A stretch of 51,026 nucleotides of DNA from Sebaldella sp. S0638 (GTDB lineage Bacteria; Fusobacteriota; Fusobacteriia; Fusobacteriales; Leptotrichiaceae): contig NZ_JAMZGM010000021.1 in NCBI RefSeq assembly GCF_024158605.1, positions 1 to 51,026 on the forward strand, given 5' to 3'. Every line of letters begins with the position of its first letter. Position 1 is the first letter of the stretch. The translations under genes were made by a program, and so were the position numbers. Shown here piece by piece: positions 24,843-32,129 of the stretch. The notes beneath the pieces were generated by a model. That model was not told the DNA's origin, ran no database searches, and worked only from the letters and a program-made list of their open reading frames with translations.

Positions 24843-25193
24843 TTAACTATTTATTATTTTTATCATTTCAATAATAGAAAACTCTTTCTCAACATTAAAA
24901 TCATAAAAACCAACATGAATATCATTCTCATACAACCAACATAAATCAGTTCCATAGGGTGCACTAAAAATATCCAAAATTACAGGATTTATATTATGCA
25001 TAGATTTCGCACTTAAAATTATAAAATTATCAGGATTGCTAACATATTCTTCATCTTCATCAATCGCATAAAAATTCCAGCCATTCAGCTGTTGAATTGA
25101 ACTCTCTTCTCTAAATGAATATTTTATTGGTTTCCCGTAAAGAATATTCTTAGAAACTATAAAACCGCCATAAAGTTCACTTTTTATCCCCAT
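24843..25193 (-). CDS. DUF2185/Imm33-like protein
   Basis: A 116-residue protein. The segments GGFIVSKNIL, the YSFREES region, NGWNFYAIDEDEEYVSNPDNF and LDIFSAPYGTDLCWL follow the order seen in DUF2185 proteins, many of which are immunity proteins (Imm33) beside polymorphic toxins. The start is the ATG at 25193, because GGAGGAG lies 8 bases before it. No toxin gene is adjacent. It is separated from the following immunity-like genes by a terminator. Confidence 0.65.
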   Translation of the reverse strand: MGIKSELYGGFIVSKNILYGKPIKYSFREESSIQQLNGWNFYAIDEDEEYVSNPDNFIILSAKSMHNINPVILDIFSAPYGTDLCWLYENDIHVGFYDFNVEKEFSIIEMIKIINS

Positions 25194-25448
25194 TTTCAAA
25201 CTCCTCCACAATTTTTAAAATATCATTTCTGCCAGAATAACTAAATTTCATAATTCTCTATTACCTTTTTTGATTATTCCATATTCCTCTTTAGAAGTCA
25301 AATAATTCTAGTCTTTGTTAAGAAAAAAACTAAGTCAAAAAGTATTTCAATTTTATCGACTTTAAAACTATTAAGATTTAAAATATAAATATAATTTCTA
25401 TCTGAAAATACAAAAGTTTGAAGTTATTAGACCTCACTTCCAACCCAC

Positions 25449-25705
25449 AAAAAAAGACTGCCTTAGCAAAGACAGCCTGAAAGTTTAAAACAAAATTTCT
25501 GGAGAGATTTTAGCACCCGGCCTCATGACCGGATACAAGTGTTTTAAAATTAACAGATACTTATTAGTCCTAATTTCAGTTAAACAAAACACTGGTGTTA
25601 ATAACACATTGACTTTTTTCCCTACAGTATAAAATATTTATCCCGATACTTTCATCCCAAAAAACTCCAATTTTTTTAAAATTATCATAAACTTTTATAC
25701 TGTTT
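25449..25705 (-). ncRNA. Structured intergenic RNA, member 1 of a pair
   Basis: A minus-strand RNA of about 255 bases. The 5' stem CAGTATAAAA (genomic 25693-25702) pairs with TTTTATACTG (genomic 25625-25634) around a 58-base loop containing TTGGAGTTTTTT. Next come an AGUGUUUU/AAAACACU stem extended by UUAAC/GUUAA, and a CCGGUC-AUGA-GGCCGG hairpin. The 3' end is a 10-bp terminator (25456-25479) with seven Us. A TATAAT and a TTCACA direct-repeat block shared with the RNA at 31.9-32.1 kb precede it. No open frame is conserved; a four-codon ATG frame is present. Confidence 0.65.
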
Positions 25706-25708
25706 GAT

Positions 25709-25746
25709 ATTATAATACTACTTCTATGTGAACTTAATGTGAATAA
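25709..25746 (-). promoter_or_regulatory. Promoter and TTCACA direct-repeat box of RNA 1
   Basis: Genomic 25726-25746 reads on the minus strand TTATTCACA, TTAAG, TTCACAT: two TTCACA units 11 bp apart (N5 between). A TATAAT -10 lies at genomic 25709-25714. The box matches that of RNA 2 at 19 of 21 positions and lies at the same distance (23 nt) from the RNA's first stem. The period suits an OmpR/PhoB-type regulator. Confidence 0.55.
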
Positions 25747-25758
25747 TAAAAATATTTT

Positions 25759-26775
25759 TTATATTTTCATATCCCCTTGTTTTATAAGTCCCATTTTTCT
25801 CATAACACCAGATACTAAAAGAGCTATTACAGCAGGAAATACAAAATGCAGAAGAATCATAGGAAGAAGTGACTTCTCCCCCATTACTTCAAATGTGGTG
25901 AACTGCCCCACTAGACCGCTTGTCCCCATTCCTGCTCCGATTTTATTATTTTCCATCTTAAATATTGCCGCCCCTACACCTCCGAGTATTACCGATGCTA
26001 CCATCGGCGGTACCAGAATAAGAGGATTTTTTATGCTGTTAGCCATCTGCAGCTTTGAAGTTCCCACTCCATGCGATATAAGTCCGTTAAATCCGTTATC
26101 CTTATATCCTGCCACTGCGAAACCTATCATATGACATGCACATCCTATAGTTGCCGCTCCTGCTGATAATCCCGACAAACCAAGGGATATTGCCACAGCT
26201 GCACTGCTTATCGGAGAAGTTATTATAATTCCCATTATTAGTGCTACAAGAATTCCCATAGGCAGAGGATTCAAATTCGTAGATTTATTTATTATGTTTC
26301 CTATAAGCATCATAAATCTGCTTATATACGGCGAAGCAAACACGCTTACTACTCCTCCGGTTATTATGGAAATACCCGGAACAACAATAATATCACACTT
26401 AGTTTTACCAAATACCACTTTTGAGGCAAGTGCTCCGGCTACACTGGCTGCAAGTGCTCCCACAGGTTCACCCGATGCAAGTATATACGAACTTCCCCCG
26501 TATTTAATGGTTCCTGCTCCGAGCATACCGCATACTACAGATGCAAAAACTCCTAAAGGCGGTGCTTCAAGTGATAATGCCACTCCTGCTCCAATGGCCG
26601 GCCCCATCATATACTGCGCTACCTGCCCGAACATAATTAATTCCTTGATATGCAGATATGTCCCTATCTGCTTAAGAATAACCCCTGTTACCAGCGATGC
26701 CATTAACCCTAATGCCATTCCGTTCAAAATTTTTACCAAAGTATTGTTCAAAAATCCTGTTTCCTGTTTTTTCAA
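25759..26775 (-). CDS. PTS_EIIC_2 (PfoR-like) membrane protein
   Basis: A 338-residue polytopic protein with about ten glycine-rich hydrophobic segments (LNGMALGLMASLVTGVI, then GPAIGAGVALSLEAPPLG, then GLVGQFTTFEVMGEK). This pattern belongs to the PTS_EIIC_2/PfoR group. It has no EIIA or EIIB partner here. The start is TTG at 26775, because AAGGAG lies just before it; an ATG at 26799 would put this SD inside the gene. It follows niaR in the same operon, which raises the possibility of nicotinate-related transport rather than sugar uptake. That is inference from context alone. Confidence 0.8.
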   Translation of the reverse strand: MKKQETGFLNNTLVKILNGMALGLMASLVTGVILKQIGTYLHIKELIMFGQVAQYMMGPAIGAGVALSLEAPPLGVFASVVCGMLGAGTIKYGGSSYILASGEPVGALAASVAGALASKVVFGKTKCDIIVVPGISIITGGVVSVFASPYISRFMMLIGNIINKSTNLNPLPMGILVALIMGIIITSPISSAAVAISLGLSGLSAGAATIGCACHMIGFAVAGYKDNGFNGLISHGVGTSKLQMANSIKNPLILVPPMVASVILGGVGAAIFKMENNKIGAGMGTSGLVGQFTTFEVMGEKSLLPMILLHFVFPAVIALLVSGVMRKMGLIKQGDMKI

Positions 26776-26809
26776 TTTTCTTCTCCTTTTGTATATCAAA
26801 AATTTTATA

Positions 26810-27319
26810 TTATAATATTAGATATCCCTTTTTTAATAATTCACTTTTTATCTTTTCAAAACTTTCTTTATTCATTGTCTCAATTGTATGCATATGAAGT
26901 CCGTCAGTAAGTGAACACAACGGCTCTACACTTGATGATCCCAGCTTTTCCATAAACTGCTCTATGTCGCCCATATTTCCTATATTCAAATTTCCTTTTA
27001 CTTCACCATAAACACCGTGTTCTACTGATACATCCAAAATTTTCCCGCCATAATTCACTATAATTTCCAATTCATCCTCCAGTTCATATTTCCCCGAATG
27101 ACGGCAGACTATTGTATTCACTATTCCCTCATGTCTGAGTTTTATATAACCGTTAGGAGTCGCTATGATATCTTCCCCTGTTGCTCTCAAAAGAGATATA
27201 TCCTGTACTATAACCTGTCTTGAAACATTAAACTTTTTTCCTAAAATACTGCCTTTTACACTCTCGGAAGATTCATTTAATATTTTCAGTATTTGGTTTC
27301 TTCTTTCCTGATTATCCAA
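26810..27319 (-). CDS. niaR: NiaR-type niacin-responsive repressor (HTH_11 + 3H domain)
   Basis: A 169-residue regulator. The N-terminal winged helix has LGKKFNVSRQVIVQDISLLRA, and a 3H domain (about 75-165) follows with its metal-binding histidines in CRHSGKY, VEHGVYG and TDGLHMHTIE. NiaR represses NAD-precursor genes when nicotinate is bound. The start is TTG at 27319 with GAGGTG before it; no ATG fits. The next gene in the operon is a PTS_EIIC_2 membrane protein, its likely target along with itself. A promoter lies at 27374-27402. Confidence 0.88.
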   Translation of the reverse strand: MDNQERRNQILKILNESSESVKGSILGKKFNVSRQVIVQDISLLRATGEDIIATPNGYIKLRHEGIVNTIVCRHSGKYELEDELEIIVNYGGKILDVSVEHGVYGEVKGNLNIGNMGDIEQFMEKLGSSSVEPLCSLTDGLHMHTIETMNKESFEKIKSELLKKGYLIL

Positions 27320-27373
27320 CTTTACACCTCATTTCACATTGTCTATTCTTCTGTCTTGTCACCTATGTTATTT

Positions 27374-27402
27374 AATTTATCATATTTTGGATATTTTTTC
27401 AA
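27374..27402 (-). promoter_or_regulatory. Likely niaR promoter
   Basis: Minus strand: TTGAAA (27397-27402), a 17-bp spacer and TAAATT (27374-27379). The leader between it and the TTG start contains GACA/TGTC-type repeats that could be the NiaR operator, but I cannot fix the site. Confidence 0.45.
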
Positions 27403-27477
27403 TTTTTATTTTTTCTTATGTATGTATAAAAAAAACTTTACATAATGATATTTTTCTCTATTACATGACAAATCTGA

Positions 27478-27491
27478 TTTACATATGTAAA
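27478..27491. promoter_or_regulatory. Perfect palindrome TTTACATATGTAAA upstream of hydC
   Basis: A 14-bp perfect palindrome 18 bp before the -35 of the hydrogenase promoter and about 75 bp from the niaR promoter. The half-site GTAAA recurs elsewhere in the window. The bound regulator is unknown; an activator or redox regulator is possible. Confidence 0.5.
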
Positions 27492-27509
27492 CCAAAGGAA
27501 TATTTGTCC

Positions 27510-27539
27510 TTGACAATGAAAAAATTTTGAGACTATAAT
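27510..27539 (+). promoter_or_regulatory. Promoter of the hydCBA operon
   Basis: TTGACA (27510-27515), an 18-bp spacer and TATAAT (27534-27539), both hexamers perfect. AAGGA/TCCTT inverted bases (27495-27511) run into the -35. Confidence 0.75.
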
Positions 27540-27621
27540 TTATTACAACATACATTTTACTTAACAGAAAATAAATATGTACTTTTTATAATTCTTTATT
27601 TGAAAAAGGTGGCTGATAATT

Positions 27622-28098
27622 ATGTGTCCGAACCGACTAAAAGAAAATGGATTCAGAGAACTGGAAGCATTCATAAATTCACTGGATACAAAGGAGGGAG
27701 CATTAATCACAGTTTTACACAGAGCTCAGGAAATCTTTGGTTACCTCCCCAAGGAAGTACAGGAATTCATAGCTGATAAACTTAATGAACCCCTTGCCAG
27801 TGTTTATGGCGTTGTTAGTTTTTATACTTTTTTTACTATGATTCCCAAAGGAGATATTGCGATATCTGTCTGTATGGGGACAGCCTGTTTTGTCAGAGGT
27901 GCTGAAAAAGTCCTTGATGAATTCCAGAGCAGGCTTGGAATAAAAGCTGGGGAAACCTCTCCCGACGGAAAATTTTCTCTGGATGTTCTGCGTTGTATAG
28001 GTGCCTGCGGAATTGCTCCTGTAGTATTGGTAAACGGTAAAGTATACAAGAAAGTAGAAGCAGGAGAAGTAAAAAATATTGTAAGCGAATATATGTGA
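27622..28098 (+). CDS. hydC: NuoE-like 24-kDa subunit of electron-bifurcating hydrogenase
   Basis: A 158-residue thioredoxin-fold subunit. Four cysteines in the order C84-x4-C89 (SVCMGTACFV) and C125-x3-C129 (RCIGACGIAP) ligate one [2Fe-2S] cluster, as in NuoE and HydC. The helical N-terminus (FGYLPKEVQEFIADKL) is typical. It passes electrons inside the HydABC complex, which oxidises NADH and reduced ferredoxin together to make H2. The SD AAGGTGG precedes the ATG. It is first of three genes; its stop lies 14 bases before the start of hydB. Confidence 0.93.
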   Translation: MCPNRLKENGFRELEAFINSLDTKEGALITVLHRAQEIFGYLPKEVQEFIADKLNEPLASVYGVVSFYTFFTMIPKGDIAISVCMGTACFVRGAEKVLDEFQSRLGIKAGETSPDGKFSLDVLRCIGACGIAPVVLVNGKVYKKVEAGEVKNIVSEYM

Positions 28099-28112
28099 AG
28101 GGAGTGAAGTGT

Positions 28113-29957
28113 ATGCCCCGTGATGAACTCATTGAAAGACTCGAAGATATGAGGAGCAGTATTTCCAAGGAAAGAAATTACAAAAAGCAGGTACTTGTCT
28201 GCTGTGGAGTAAACTGCCTCACTTCAGGAAACGACATAATTCTGGAAAAATTCCAGAGCAGAATAAAAGAAATGAATCTGGACAGTGAAATTAACGTGAC
28301 CAAAACAGGCTGTTTCGGATTTTGTGCCAGAGGCCCTATTGTAGAAATCCTTCCGGACAAAATCTTTTATACTGAAATAACACTGGACGATGTTGATAAA
28401 ATTATAGATAAACACCTCTTAAAGAATCAGGAAATCGAAGAACTTTTATACACCAATCCACTCACCAAAGAAAAAATTGGCAAACCAAAACACATGGACT
28501 TTTACAAAAAACAAAAAAAAATCGCACTTAGAAACTGCGGTATTATTAATCCTGAAAGCATTGATGACTATGTTTTGGCAGATGGTTACACTGCATTAGA
28601 CAAAGCTCTGAAAATGACTCCTGAAGAAGTCGTGGAAATTGTGAAGAATTCAGGACTAAGAGGGCGCGGAGGTGCCGGCTTTCCCACAGGAAAAAAATGG
28701 GAAATAGCTCTTCATAATGAAGCTCCAGAAAAATATGTAGTCTGTAATGCTGATGAAGGTGATCCCGGTGCATTTATGGACAGGTCTATTCTTGAAGACG
28801 ATCCTCACTCAATAGTGGAAGCTATGGCTATCTGCGGTTATGCCATAGGTGCTGAATATGGTCTTGTATATATCAGGGCAGAATATCCAAATGCTATGAA
28901 AGTGATTGCTAAAGCTATAAAAGATGCAAGAAGCCATGGATTTCTCGGAAAAAATATTTATAATACTAACTTTAGTTTTGATATTCAGCTCAAATACGGT
29001 GCAGGTGCTTTTGTCTGCGGTGAAGAAACTGCTCTTATCCGTTCTATGATGGGAAAAAGAGGTGAACCTGTGAACAAACCTCCGTTCCCCGCAGAGAGAG
29101 GTTACAAAAATTCTCCTACCAATGTCAATAATGTAGAGACTTTGGCTAATATCCCCGTTATTATAAAAAGGGGAGCCGAATGGTTCAGATCTTTTGGTAC
29201 TGAAAATTCACCTGGAACAAAAGTATTTGCCCTTGCGGGAAAAATCAACAATACCGGTCTTATAGAAGTTCCTATGGGAACTACATTAAGAGAAATTATA
29301 TACGAAATAGGCGGAGGCATTAAAAACGGAAAAAGATTCAAAGCCGTGCAGACAGGAGGTCCGTCAGGGGGATGTCTTACTATTGATGATCTTGACACTT
29401 CTATAGATTTCGACAGTCTTACGGCTAAAGGTTCTATGATGGGTTCCGGAGGTATGATTATCATGGATGAAGATAACTGTATGCCTGCCATGGCAAAATT
29501 TTATCTGGATTTTACAGTTGATGAATCCTGTGGAAAATGTACTCCGTGCAGAATAGGAAATAAAAGGCTTCTTGAAATATTAAAAAGAATAACAAGCGGT
29601 GAAGGAACTGAAGATGACCTGTATACACTGAAAGAGCTTTCACTTATTATAAAAGATTCTGCTTTATGCGGCCTTGGGCAGACAGCGCCGAATCCTGTGC
29701 TTTCCACCCTTGATAAATTCTGGGATGAATATATTGCCCATGTAAGAGATAAAAAATGCCCTTCCGGACAATGCAGGGCTTTAATAAAATATGTAATTAA
29801 TAATAAGTGTATAGGATGTACACTGTGTGCAAGAATCTGTCCGGAATCCTGCATTACAGGAAGCCCGAAACAAAGACATTATATAGATACCGAAAAATGC
29901 ATTAAGTGCGGTTCTTGTTATGAAGCATGTAAATTTCACGCAATTGACAGAGTCTAA
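28113..29957 (+). CDS. hydB: NuoF-like flavin subunit of electron-bifurcating hydrogenase
   Basis: A 614-residue multi-cofactor protein. Order: an N-terminal thioredoxin-like [2Fe-2S] domain (CCGVNC and TGCFGFCARGP); the 51-kDa NADH/FMN domain (GLRGRGGAGFPTGKKWE); a [4Fe-4S] site (CGKCTPCR); a C-terminal two-cluster ferredoxin domain (CIGCTLCARICPESC and CIKCGSCYEAC). It binds NADH and splits electrons between the two donors in the bifurcating complex. The ATG at 28113 is chosen because AAGGGAG lies 8 bases before it; a GTG at 28095 is possible but has no SD. A 57-base gap separates it from hydA. Confidence 0.93.
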   Translation: MPRDELIERLEDMRSSISKERNYKKQVLVCCGVNCLTSGNDIILEKFQSRIKEMNLDSEINVTKTGCFGFCARGPIVEILPDKIFYTEITLDDVDKIIDKHLLKNQEIEELLYTNPLTKEKIGKPKHMDFYKKQKKIALRNCGIINPESIDDYVLADGYTALDKALKMTPEEVVEIVKNSGLRGRGGAGFPTGKKWEIALHNEAPEKYVVCNADEGDPGAFMDRSILEDDPHSIVEAMAICGYAIGAEYGLVYIRAEYPNAMKVIAKAIKDARSHGFLGKNIYNTNFSFDIQLKYGAGAFVCGEETALIRSMMGKRGEPVNKPPFPAERGYKNSPTNVNNVETLANIPVIIKRGAEWFRSFGTENSPGTKVFALAGKINNTGLIEVPMGTTLREIIYEIGGGIKNGKRFKAVQTGGPSGGCLTIDDLDTSIDFDSLTAKGSMMGSGGMIIMDEDNCMPAMAKFYLDFTVDESCGKCTPCRIGNKRLLEILKRITSGEGTEDDLYTLKELSLIIKDSALCGLGQTAPNPVLSTLDKFWDEYIAHVRDKKCPSGQCRALIKYVINNKCIGCTLCARICPESCITGSPKQRHYIDTEKCIKCGSCYEACKFHAIDRV

Positions 29958-30014
29958 CTCTGAGATGGACTTGATTTTACATTATTAACAGAACCACTAA
30001 AAAGGAGGATATTT

Positions 30015-31778
30015 ATGAAACATGATTTAATCACTCTGACTATAGATCACAAAACTGTGGAAGTACCGGAAGGTACTACTATACTTGCAGCAGCCAAAAG
30101 TGTCGGTATCAGTATTCCTACTCTCTGTTACCTGAATCTTGCAGACTTTGGCTGTGTAAATACCCCGTCTTCATGCAGGATGTGCCTTGTAGAAGTAGAA
30201 GGCAGAAGAAATCTCGCCCCTGCATGTGTTACTACTGTTACGGACAAAATGGTAATCAGCACTAATTCCGTGAGAGCATTAAAAACCAGAAAGACTATGC
30301 TGGAGCTGCTTCTTTCAGACCATCCCAAAGAATGCCTCACATGCCAGAAATCCGGAAACTGTGAATTACAGAATCTTGCTGACAGATTTTCTATAAGGGA
30401 TATAAAGCTGAAAGGTGAGCAATCTACTTACAGGCTTGATATATCCAAGTCTCTTATACGTGACATGGACAAATGTATAATGTGCCGCCGTTGTGAGACA
30501 ATGTGTAATGAAGTCCAGACTGTAGGAGTCTTATCAGCAATTAACAGGGGCTTTGAATCTGTTATTGCCACTGCTATGGAAATCAATCTAAACGACTCTG
30601 TATGTACATACTGCGGTCAATGTGCTGCTGTGTGTCCTACAGGAGCTTTAGTGGAAAATGACTCTACATGGGATGTTGTCACAGCTTTGGGAGACCCTGA
30701 AAAAACAGTAATTGTTCAAACAGCTCCTTCTGTAAGAGCGGCTCTGGGAGAAGAATTCGGATTAGAGCCCGGTACGCTTGTTACGGGAAAAATGGTAGCA
30801 GCTCTTCGAAATCTTGGTTTTGATAAAGTATTTGATACCGACTTCGGTGCTGATCTTACTATTATGGAAGAAGCTTCCGAATTTTTAGACAGATTAACAC
30901 GTCATCTTGCAGGTGACACCAGTGTAAAGCTCCCCATTCTTACTTCCTGCTGTCCTGCATGGGTAAACTTCTTTGAACACAATTTCAGCGATCTTTTGGA
31001 TGTTCCTTCTACTTCAAAGTCTCCTATGCAGATGTTCAGTGCTGTTGTAAAAAATGTCTATGCTCAGGAGCTTGGCGTTGACAGAAAAAATCTTGTTGTT
31101 GTTTCGGTTATGCCTTGCCTTGCCAAAAAATATGAAGCAAGCAGGGATGAATTTTCAATAGGAAATGATTATGATACTGATATTGTTCTTTCTACAAGAG
31201 AACTTGCCAAATTAATAAAGCAGTATAATATAGAATTCAGTCTGCTGGAAGATGAAGAATTTGACAATCCCCTTGGCGAATCAACTGGTGCAGGTGTTAT
31301 TTTCGGAAGAACAGGCGGAGTTATTGAAGCAGCTCTGAGAACAGCTGCTGACTGGTACACTAAAGAATACCTGAAAGATATTGATTATACTCAGGTCAGA
31401 GGATTCGAAGGAGTACGGAGTGCTGATGTAAAAATCGGAGATCTGGATCTGAAAATAGGTATAGCCCATGGCCTTGGAGATGCAAGAAAACTTCTTGAAG
31501 AAGTGAGAGCTGGTAAATCTGTATATCATGCTATAGAAATAATGGCATGTAAAGGCGGATGTATCGGAGGCGGCGGTCAACCTTACCACCATGGAAATAC
31601 TGCTATCTTAAAGAAAAGAACCGAAGCACTTAAAATAGAAGATGAGTCTAAAAAAATAAGAAAATCTCATGAAAATCCTTTTATTATAAAACTATACAAA
31701 GAATACTTCGGTGAACCGCTCAGCCACAGATCCCATGAATTACTGCATACAAGATATTTTAAAAAACATAAGATATAA
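30015..31778 (+). CDS. hydA: [FeFe]-hydrogenase catalytic subunit
   Basis: A 587-residue H2-forming enzyme. An N-terminal [2Fe-2S] domain (about 1-80, GCVNTPSSCRMCLVEVEG) comes first, then a His-ligated [4Fe-4S] (HPKECLTCQKSGNCELQ). Two [4Fe-4S] clusters follow (CIMCRRCETMC and CTYCGQCAAVCP). The H-cluster motifs are L1 TSCCPAWV, L2 MPCLAKKYE and L3 MACKGGCIGGGGQP. All expected cysteines are present, so it should be active once HydEFG mature it; none of these is in the window. The SD AAGGAGG lies 6 bases before the ATG. The terminator at 31783 ends the operon. Confidence 0.96.
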   Translation: MKHDLITLTIDHKTVEVPEGTTILAAAKSVGISIPTLCYLNLADFGCVNTPSSCRMCLVEVEGRRNLAPACVTTVTDKMVISTNSVRALKTRKTMLELLLSDHPKECLTCQKSGNCELQNLADRFSIRDIKLKGEQSTYRLDISKSLIRDMDKCIMCRRCETMCNEVQTVGVLSAINRGFESVIATAMEINLNDSVCTYCGQCAAVCPTGALVENDSTWDVVTALGDPEKTVIVQTAPSVRAALGEEFGLEPGTLVTGKMVAALRNLGFDKVFDTDFGADLTIMEEASEFLDRLTRHLAGDTSVKLPILTSCCPAWVNFFEHNFSDLLDVPSTSKSPMQMFSAVVKNVYAQELGVDRKNLVVVSVMPCLAKKYEASRDEFSIGNDYDTDIVLSTRELAKLIKQYNIEFSLLEDEEFDNPLGESTGAGVIFGRTGGVIEAALRTAADWYTKEYLKDIDYTQVRGFEGVRSADVKIGDLDLKIGIAHGLGDARKLLEEVRAGKSVYHAIEIMACKGGCIGGGGQPYHHGNTAILKKRTEALKIEDESKKIRKSHENPFIIKLYKEYFGEPLSHRSHELLHTRYFKKHKI

Positions 31779-31782
31779 ATAC

Positions 31783-31815
31783 AAAACAGCTGTCTTTTTA
31801 GCGGCTGTTTTCTAT
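31783..31815 (+). terminator. Terminator of hydCBA
   Basis: AAAACAGCTG (31783-31792) pairs with CGGCTGTTTT (31802-31811), one G-U, followed by TCT and T/A bases, five bases after the hydA stop codon. Confidence 0.75.
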
Positions 31816-31869
31816 ATATACCATGATTTTCAGTTTAAATTCTGTATTCACTAAAAATATCAGAATATT

Positions 31870-32090
31870 ATAAAAAGAGGCCTGGCAGCATTAGTACCAG
31901 CCTCTCTAGATGTAAACTTAGGAGATAAGGTTCTTTGCAGCTGTTTCGGAATCCTTATATTAATTCCAAAACATTCTGTTTCGAACCAGCTTTCTTTCCA
32001 TTTACTAGCAGTATAATGTTTATTTCTTTTGAAAACTTTTTTACTAAAAACTCCTGGATTTGTGTAAAATTAAAATATTATACTGCTCCT
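31870..32090 (-). ncRNA. Structured intergenic RNA, member 2 of a pair
   Basis: A minus-strand RNA of about 220 bases. The 5' stem AGCAGTATAAT pairs with ATTATACTGCT (genomic 32077-32087 with 32007-32017, 11 perfect pairs) around a 59-base loop containing CCAGGAGTTTTT. A hairpin AGCUG-G-UUCG/CGAA-A-CAGCU follows, with a GGAAU/AUUCC inner stem. The terminator AGAGG-CUGG/CCAG-CCUCU (31876-31905) has five Us. The gap between hydA and glycerate kinase holds no gene. The same architecture occurs at 25.45-25.71 kb. Confidence 0.65.
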
Positions 32091-32093
32091 ATA

Positions 32094-32129
32094 TATCATA
32101 TAATTTCAATGTGAAAATAATGTGAATAA
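32094..32129 (-). promoter_or_regulatory. Promoter and TTCACA direct-repeat box of RNA 2
   Basis: Genomic 32109-32129 reads on the minus strand TTATTCACA, TTATT, TTCACAT: TTCACA twice with N5 between. It differs from the box of RNA 1 at only two of 21 positions and is followed by a TATGAT/TATATA -10 region. The AT-rich ~20 bp upstream are also alike in the two loci. It lies 162 bp after the glycerate kinase stop. Confidence 0.55.

Follow-up and report, generated by a model that had tools for sequence, protein, structure and literature searches.

Two paralogous RNAs as the probable noncoding arm of an envelope-stress regulon in Sebaldella

The two-component system CiaRH of Streptococcus places several stand-alone small RNAs (sRNAs) per genome, the csRNAs, under one response regulator with a direct-repeat box (excerpts of PMC3091779 and PMC4507080). 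These RNAs measure 51–202 nt, the CiaR box reads NTTAAG-N5-TTTAAG, and both C-rich stretches complementary to Shine-Dalgarno sites and a nonamer, [A/C]UCCUAAA[A/C], are described for them (excerpts of PMC3091779). In Fusobacterium nucleatum, a member of the Fusobacteriota, FoxI and FoxJ are RNAs with C-rich seeds within a sigma E-dependent envelope-stress response; their targets for repression include envelope proteins, the porin FomA among them (excerpts of PMC11005410). CpxQ of Escherichia coli is the RNA arm of the Cpx envelope-stress two-component system, which has a CpxP/Spy-type protein; CpxQ comes from the 3' end of cpxP mRNA and lowers CpxP (excerpts of PMC4817254). Here we describe two loci, A and B, both intergenic and both on the minus strand, in a 51,026-nucleotide stretch of Sebaldella sp. 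S0638 (contig NZ_JAMZGM010000021.1, positions 1 to 51,026; the window). They share features with all three systems, and from their sequence they are probably two paralogous trans-acting sRNAs that form the noncoding arm of an envelope-stress regulon in Sebaldella.

The window's genome (G000; 4.27 Mb in 292 contigs) was compared with three other Sebaldella genomes, G001, G002 and G003, of which the G001 and G002 assemblies are 86–87% complete; G004 is a genome of another genus in the same family. In this setting the differences from the known systems are as clear as the likenesses. The Sebaldella box, TTCAC-N6-TTCACAT, differs from the CiaR box, and the csRNAs come from another phylum and are shorter than the ~220 and 257 nt predicted in the window; the excerpts of the csRNA literature make no mention of a hairpin with GGAGUUUUU. 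The csRNA nonamer is matched at 8/9 positions by CUCCUAAAU in B of G003 and at 7/9 by CUCCUAAGU in B of G000, and A has no match. FoxI and FoxJ are driven by sigma E, whereas the Sebaldella promoters fit a regulator box with a TANNNT -10 element, a comparison of promoters and not of RNA sequences. Unlike CpxQ, A and B have promoters of their own, and the Sebaldella regulator reaches 128.8 bits with the CpxR model, far below its cut-off of 341.

To our knowledge, sRNAs of the Fusobacteriota are known mainly from FoxI and FoxJ, both tied to sigma E. We found no literature combining Sebaldella and sRNA, the literature naming both Sebaldella and a response regulator used each term once only, and, by title, no two-component-driven RNA of the phylum appeared among the listed matches on Fusobacterium sRNAs and two-component systems. 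As far as could be found, an RNA arm of a surface-stress response in Sebaldella appears to be undescribed. If our reading is correct, the Fusobacteriota would have a second and independent route by which a surface-stress response acquires RNA brakes, running through a two-component system and with a design close to that of the streptococcal csRNAs, to which no test that we ran indicated relatedness. The box, the regulator, the kinase, the Spy-like protein and the candidate genes described below would also constitute a testable regulon.

Anatomy and distribution of RNAs A and B

A previous sequence-only reading of the window had described a shared promoter-proximal block, fixed spacing, 5' stems and a common loop motif, and direct reading of the sequence finds every one of these in place. 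The blocks TTATTCACATTAAGTTCACAT (locus A) and TTATTCACATTATTTTCACAT (locus B) are the same at 19 of 21 positions, and at both loci 23 bases run from the block end to CAGTATAA (25725–25703 and 32108–32086), which opens a common hairpin, CAGTATAA...TTATACTG, enclosing GGAGTTTTT. RNA A (25449–25705, ~257 nt) pairs CAGTATAAAA with TTTTATACTG (25702–25693 with 25634–25625; hairpin 25625–25702) around a 58-base loop that holds GGAGTTTTT at 25660–25668. RNA B (31872–32090, ~220 nt) pairs AGCAGTATAAT with ATTATACTGCT (32087–32077 with 32017–32007; hairpin 32007–32087) around a 59-base loop, with GGAGTTTTT at 32046–32054. The GGA of the motif is predicted to be unpaired with a probability of at least 0.97 in A of the window sequence and at least 0.93 across the A loops of G000, G001 and G003; its predicted exposure is lower in A of G002 and B of G003.

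Neither gap contains a gene, as had been proposed, and each RNA ends in its own intrinsic terminator, at 25449–25478 for A and, with a T run inside and past the 3' side of the hairpin, at 31874–31907 for B. One terminator-like site was found per scanned region, and shuffled sequences average 0.1. The fold z-scores are -3.40 for A and -4.72 for B, to both of which the terminator contributes, and in each case none of 200 shuffles was equal. Both RNAs are apparently noncoding: no reading frame of at least 8 codons is common to A and B, or to all four A copies, and a 10-codon TTG frame occurs in three of the four. We rejected a small protein since no frame is common to all copies.

The two RNAs diverge after the hairpin, in agreement with the sequence-only reading. 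In G000, 60 of 90 aligned columns are identical in the 5' hairpin, against 99 of 183 in the 3' domain, the latter being close to chance expectation for an AT-rich pair. The same reading had held that stem pairing is kept despite different bases, which proved true at the stem ends only; across the copies, 7 of 10 pairs are invariant, one has changed on both sides, and two deviate only through unpaired cells. It had also staked the family on further copies with covarying stems. Copies do exist; the stem is too conserved to display covariation, and no measure stood clearly above shuffling (the best, a covariation score, was equaled by 65 of 500 shuffles).

That A and B belong to a multicopy family of sRNAs was borne out as far as related, stand-alone, apparently noncoding RNAs are concerned, since A is present in 4/4 and B in 2/4 Sebaldella genomes (G000 and G003). 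The suggested covariance-type search was run with a model, R1, comprising the box and the 5' hairpin and built from the six A and B copies themselves. Over 96 genomes of the order (E up to 0.05, with stricter filters than in the family search), R1 returned six strong matches (E 1.2e-14 or better) in four genomes, all Sebaldella, and A and B were not found in the 92 others. In 33 genomes of the family it gave 14 further weak matches (E 0.0365 and above): six are known box sites of protein genes, four have a near-box, and four look like chance. An exact-pattern scan of the genome collection gave five matches, two of them real (A of G002, on contig L194, and L192, the A sequence of G001); we set aside the other three, from unrelated bacteria with no box in the 120 bases upstream, as chance-like. 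The B copy of G003 is 77% identical over 263 bases and is followed by the same flank as in the window. B was missing from the 700 bases that follow the glycerate kinase gene of G001 and G002, assemblies 86–87% complete. G000 also has a second glycerate kinase gene (L199, G000:C77:1394-2527), whose protein is 89% identical to the one beside locus B, and the bases examined downstream of it hold no B copy.

The statement that the RNAs are not 6S, tmRNA, RNase P, SRP or a known riboswitch agrees with an Rfam search, in which the window had no match at the gathering score. A permissive scan of the six loci placed only a flanking tRNA above the cut-off, and we rejected the Rfam families on these two results.

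Two neighbors of RNA A deserve mention. Its box begins 15 bases past the stop codon of a PTS EIIC gene (window 25744–25758), so RNA A sequence may also arise by read-through, and an Imm33-type immunity-like gene lies downstream, at window 24843–25211.

The promoter box and its company

The shared block is, judged from sequence, a regulator-like box that lies upstream of the predicted start site and outside the RNA. At locus A the direct repeat TTCACATTAAGTTCACAT (TTCAC-N6-TTCACAT, 25726–25743) is followed 8 bases on by the -10 element TATTAT (25712–25717), with a predicted start near 25705; at locus B, TTCACATTATTTTCACAT (32109–32126) precedes TATGAT (32095–32100), with a predicted start near 32090–32087. 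The repeat has an 11-base period and occupies the position of a -35 element, and a direct-repeat box over the -35 region is a layout of PhoB-type regulators.

The first similarity search already found the box before a protein gene as well as before the RNAs. The pattern TTCAC-N6-TTCACAT-NNNA occurs at 14 places in the four Sebaldella genomes and nowhere as its reversed control, and in 14/14 of these places a TANNNT element stands exactly 8 bases past the box. With NNNA dropped, box plus -10 element gave 26 Sebaldella sites (12 in G000, nine in G003, three in G002 and two in G001) against one for the reversed control; among 29 other genomes of the family we observed a single site, in G004, the other 28 having none.

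In every one of the four Sebaldella genomes, one box lies before the gene of a small, secreted Spy/CpxP-like protein, and the genes of an OmpR-type regulator and then a histidine kinase follow. Pfam domains of this operon were assigned on the G000 proteins only, where the Spy-like protein scores 26.8 bits with Metal_resist, under the 29.2 cut-off and hence a weak assignment. The regulator matched 103 NCBIfam models and passed the cut-off of none among the 25 matches listed, so we name it only OmpR/PhoB-type. An orthologue of the kinase (E 1e-40 or better) is present in 4/33 genomes of the family, the same four that carry RNA A. In G003 the operon lies at 1.24 Mb, and A and B at 3.82 Mb. The G004 site (L033, G004:C32:5004) has box and -10 element before a protein that scores 35.7 bits with LTXXQ, above the 24.3 cut-off, yet this genome lacks a close kinase orthologue.

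The 26 Sebaldella sites comprise the six A and B copies, one site without an open reading frame (ORF) and 19 coding sites. Signal-peptide-like starts, called by a simple hydrophobicity rule, were seen at 18/19 of the coding sites versus 52/386 background genes, with slightly different rules for choosing start codons in the box genes and in the background. The background came from naive gene calling on 20 evenly spaced 20-kb stretches of G003 and contains some false ORFs. Counting G004, 21 of 27 sites are not A or B, 20 of them have an ORF, and 19/20 of these are signal-peptide-like. From their first 110 residues at most, other box genes encode a DKNYY protein and a TPR protein (above the Pfam cut-off) and OmpA-like, beta-barrel-like and two-partner-secretion-like proteins (below it).

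That the RNAs go together with a secreted-protein regulon and an autoregulated two-component system is a solid result, and the box common to all of them provides a regulatory context for the RNAs. By sequence, A and B have what is expected of sRNAs in a two-component regulon: a promoter and a terminator of their own, no conserved ORF, and the box that also heads the operon of the regulator. Given the company of the box, A and B are most likely paralogous sRNAs of this two-component system. Their control by the OmpR/PhoB-type regulator is predicted by analogy with the csRNAs, FoxI/FoxJ and CpxQ. The kinase would sense surface stress, and the regulator would bind TTCAC-N6-TTCACAT over the -35 region and activate its own operon together with RNAs A and B and the genes of outer-membrane and secreted proteins. 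In both RNAs, the 5' hairpin with GGAGUUUUU would be followed by a middle part that differs between them, a C-rich seed with UCUCC and the terminator; for the shared hairpin we favor a module for stability or for binding a helper factor. By covering ribosome-binding sites of envelope-protein mRNAs, the seed would allow an activating regulator to repress as well, and B may act back on the Spy-like operon, in the way that CpxQ lowers CpxP (excerpts of PMC4817254).

Putative seeds, candidate targets and alternatives

All six RNAs carry UCUCC or a near variant 5' of the terminator. The putative seed of A, AAATCTCTCCAGAAATTTT (25492–25510), is identical in G003 and varies in G001 (AAATCTCTCTGGAAATTTT) and G002 (TATATCTCCAAAAGTTTT); that of B, CCTTATCTCCTAAGTTTAC (31912–31930), is near-identical in G003 (CTTATCTCCTAAATTTAC). 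Translational repression through this stretch is the likely mechanism by analogy with the csRNAs, FoxI/FoxJ and CpxQ.

For A, the candidate targets are giant surface-type genes (L113, 1–9647, minus strand; L150, from 1513) that start MWKNKKK and extend over 3,215 codons or more in the stretch taken from G003. Pieces of the giant proteins that were tried had no Pfam match, so we do not call them autotransporters. Their ribosome site, TGGAGAGATT(T), is perfectly complementary to the A seed over 10–11 bases in G003 and in G000, with duplex energies of -19.2 and -19.6 kcal/mol, respectively. By energy, 4 and 5 of 386 sampled starts were as good (the G003 gene being among the 386), as were 1 and 0 of 1000 shuffled seeds; a gapless score was weaker (12 and 14 of 386; 17 and 9 of 1000). 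The corresponding ribosome-site pattern, GGAGAGATT, occurs at 28 places in the four genomes against 7 for the control, and 20 of the 28 head an ORF of at least 60 codons.

For B, the candidate is the ribosome site of the Spy-like gene, AAAUUUAUGAGGUGA. The G003 seed pairs 7+7 around one mismatch (UUAUCUC/GAGGUGA and UAAAUUU/AAAUUUA), at -11.2 to -13.7 kcal/mol in both B-carrying genomes; G001 and G002, which lack B, have an altered AAAUUUA half and weaker pairing, -8.2 to -11.0. By gapless score, 8/386 starts and 15 (G000) or 3 (G003) of 1000 shuffles were as good. A ribosome-site pattern for B gave 58 sites, with 35 for controls. Duplex energies against 16 leaders of the regulon were ordinary, the mean fraction of shuffles as good being 0.34–0.52 over eight segment-genome sets. 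The outliers among 64 such tests were, in both genomes, the pairing of the B seed with the Spy-like leader and, in G000, that of the B loop with two leaders (0/60 shuffles as good), the latter without a repeat in G003, where the counterpart of one leader gave 0.32.

Several observations weigh against the seed-and-target part of our reading, and one against the regulon counts. The seed is only partly free: its mean unpaired probability is ~0.6 in A and B of G003 and in A of G000, against 0.3 in B of G000, and most of it is paired in G002 and in G001, whose version reads UCUCU. Both target candidates were chosen post hoc and are leads only. The giant gene was missing among the ten best listed by duplex energy when a longer A segment was used, and only four of the 20 ORFs behind GGAGAGATT look secreted by eye. 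The energy of B with the Spy-like site is ordinary, with 127 and 105 of 386 starts and 108 and 29 of 1000 shuffles as good. Long complements to the B seed numbered 25 over the four genomes versus 40 for the control (12 versus 10 in G002 alone); two are RNA B itself, and 0/20 others examined precede a secreted-type gene, and one of these heads a 206-aa gene of a different type. The 15-mer from A found RNA A itself, two times, and, with a mismatch, one further site. Across the 386 gene starts, the seeds showed no preference for secreted genes (23/48 and 16/48 shuffles as strong). Finally, the coding box sites include orthologues of one another, so that the 18 of 19 secreted-type starts are not independent.

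The earlier suggestion that the RNAs base-pair through GGAGUUUUU was not supported: with the A loop against the 386 gene starts, 15/48 shuffles were as strong for secreted genes, and the shift for B was weak (2/48, with four segments tested). An unlikely alternative keeps the same regulon and lets the RNAs act by binding or titrating a protein through the GGAG hairpin, in the manner of a sponge. The hairpin is indeed the part that A and B have in common, and its GGA is predicted to be exposed in three of the A loops; however, exposure falls in A of G002 and B of G003, and each RNA has one conserved GGAG rather than many. CsrA, a reader of GGA, was found in 0/4 Sebaldella genomes (two of them 86–87% complete), whereas 3/14 control genomes matched, and we rejected a CsrB-like sponge on this result. 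The mostly negative target tests would also suit box-driven noncoding transcripts without regulatory function. We regard that as distinctly improbable, given that four species have retained promoter, hairpin and loop motif despite divergence of the 3' domain, and that the RNAs have their own terminators. A structured 5' region followed by a terminator could also suggest leaders that act in cis on a downstream gene, as a riboswitch or an attenuator, which is scarcely credible here: locus B faces a convergent gene (30015–31778, plus strand), on which ground we rejected it; after the A terminator the next minus-strand ORF of at least 60 codons starts 238 bases on (25211); the window has no Rfam match; and the same flank follows B in G003.

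Another alternative concerns the loop itself, whose GGAG could mask the RNA's own UCUCC seed as a built-in decoy and let the RNA toggle between a closed and an open form. Five of the six RNAs have both CUCC in the seed and GGAG in the loop, and in A of G002 a 10-base perfect match joins loop and 3' domain (AGGAGUUUUU with AAAAACUCCU), away from UCUCC, with 3/200 shuffles as good. In the other five RNAs, however, loop/3'-domain pairing is no better than in shuffles (75 to 189 of 200 as good), and we consider such toggling very doubtful. Similarly little credence goes to a modular family in which the hairpin's decoy ribosome site, GGAGUUUUU, would keep a seed shut, either that of its own RNA or that of the sister RNA, until opened by a target or a helper protein. 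Were the decoy reading true, a single stress sensor would control two adjustable brakes, and one of these would feed back on the sensor's operon. We retain paralogous trans-acting sRNAs as the probable reading of A and B.

Leaders of other box-driven genes

Further box-driven genes have leaders of their own. Two very similar ones, L051 (G000:C55:257) and L053 (G000:C55:16639), lie on one contig, and one of the two heads a 442-aa protein without a signal-peptide-like start, the sole exception among the box genes. The secretion-type genes L055 (G000:C85), L057 (G000:C98) and L056 (G003:C1:4133335) have leaders of ~150–200 nt that hold a second, consensus-like -35/-10 pair. In L055 and L057 the leaders also share ATTACTAA(A/G)TATCTCATTTAT, after which come GTTACTT or GTTGCTT and, ahead of the start codon, a T run; this element looks like an attenuator or another structured RNA.

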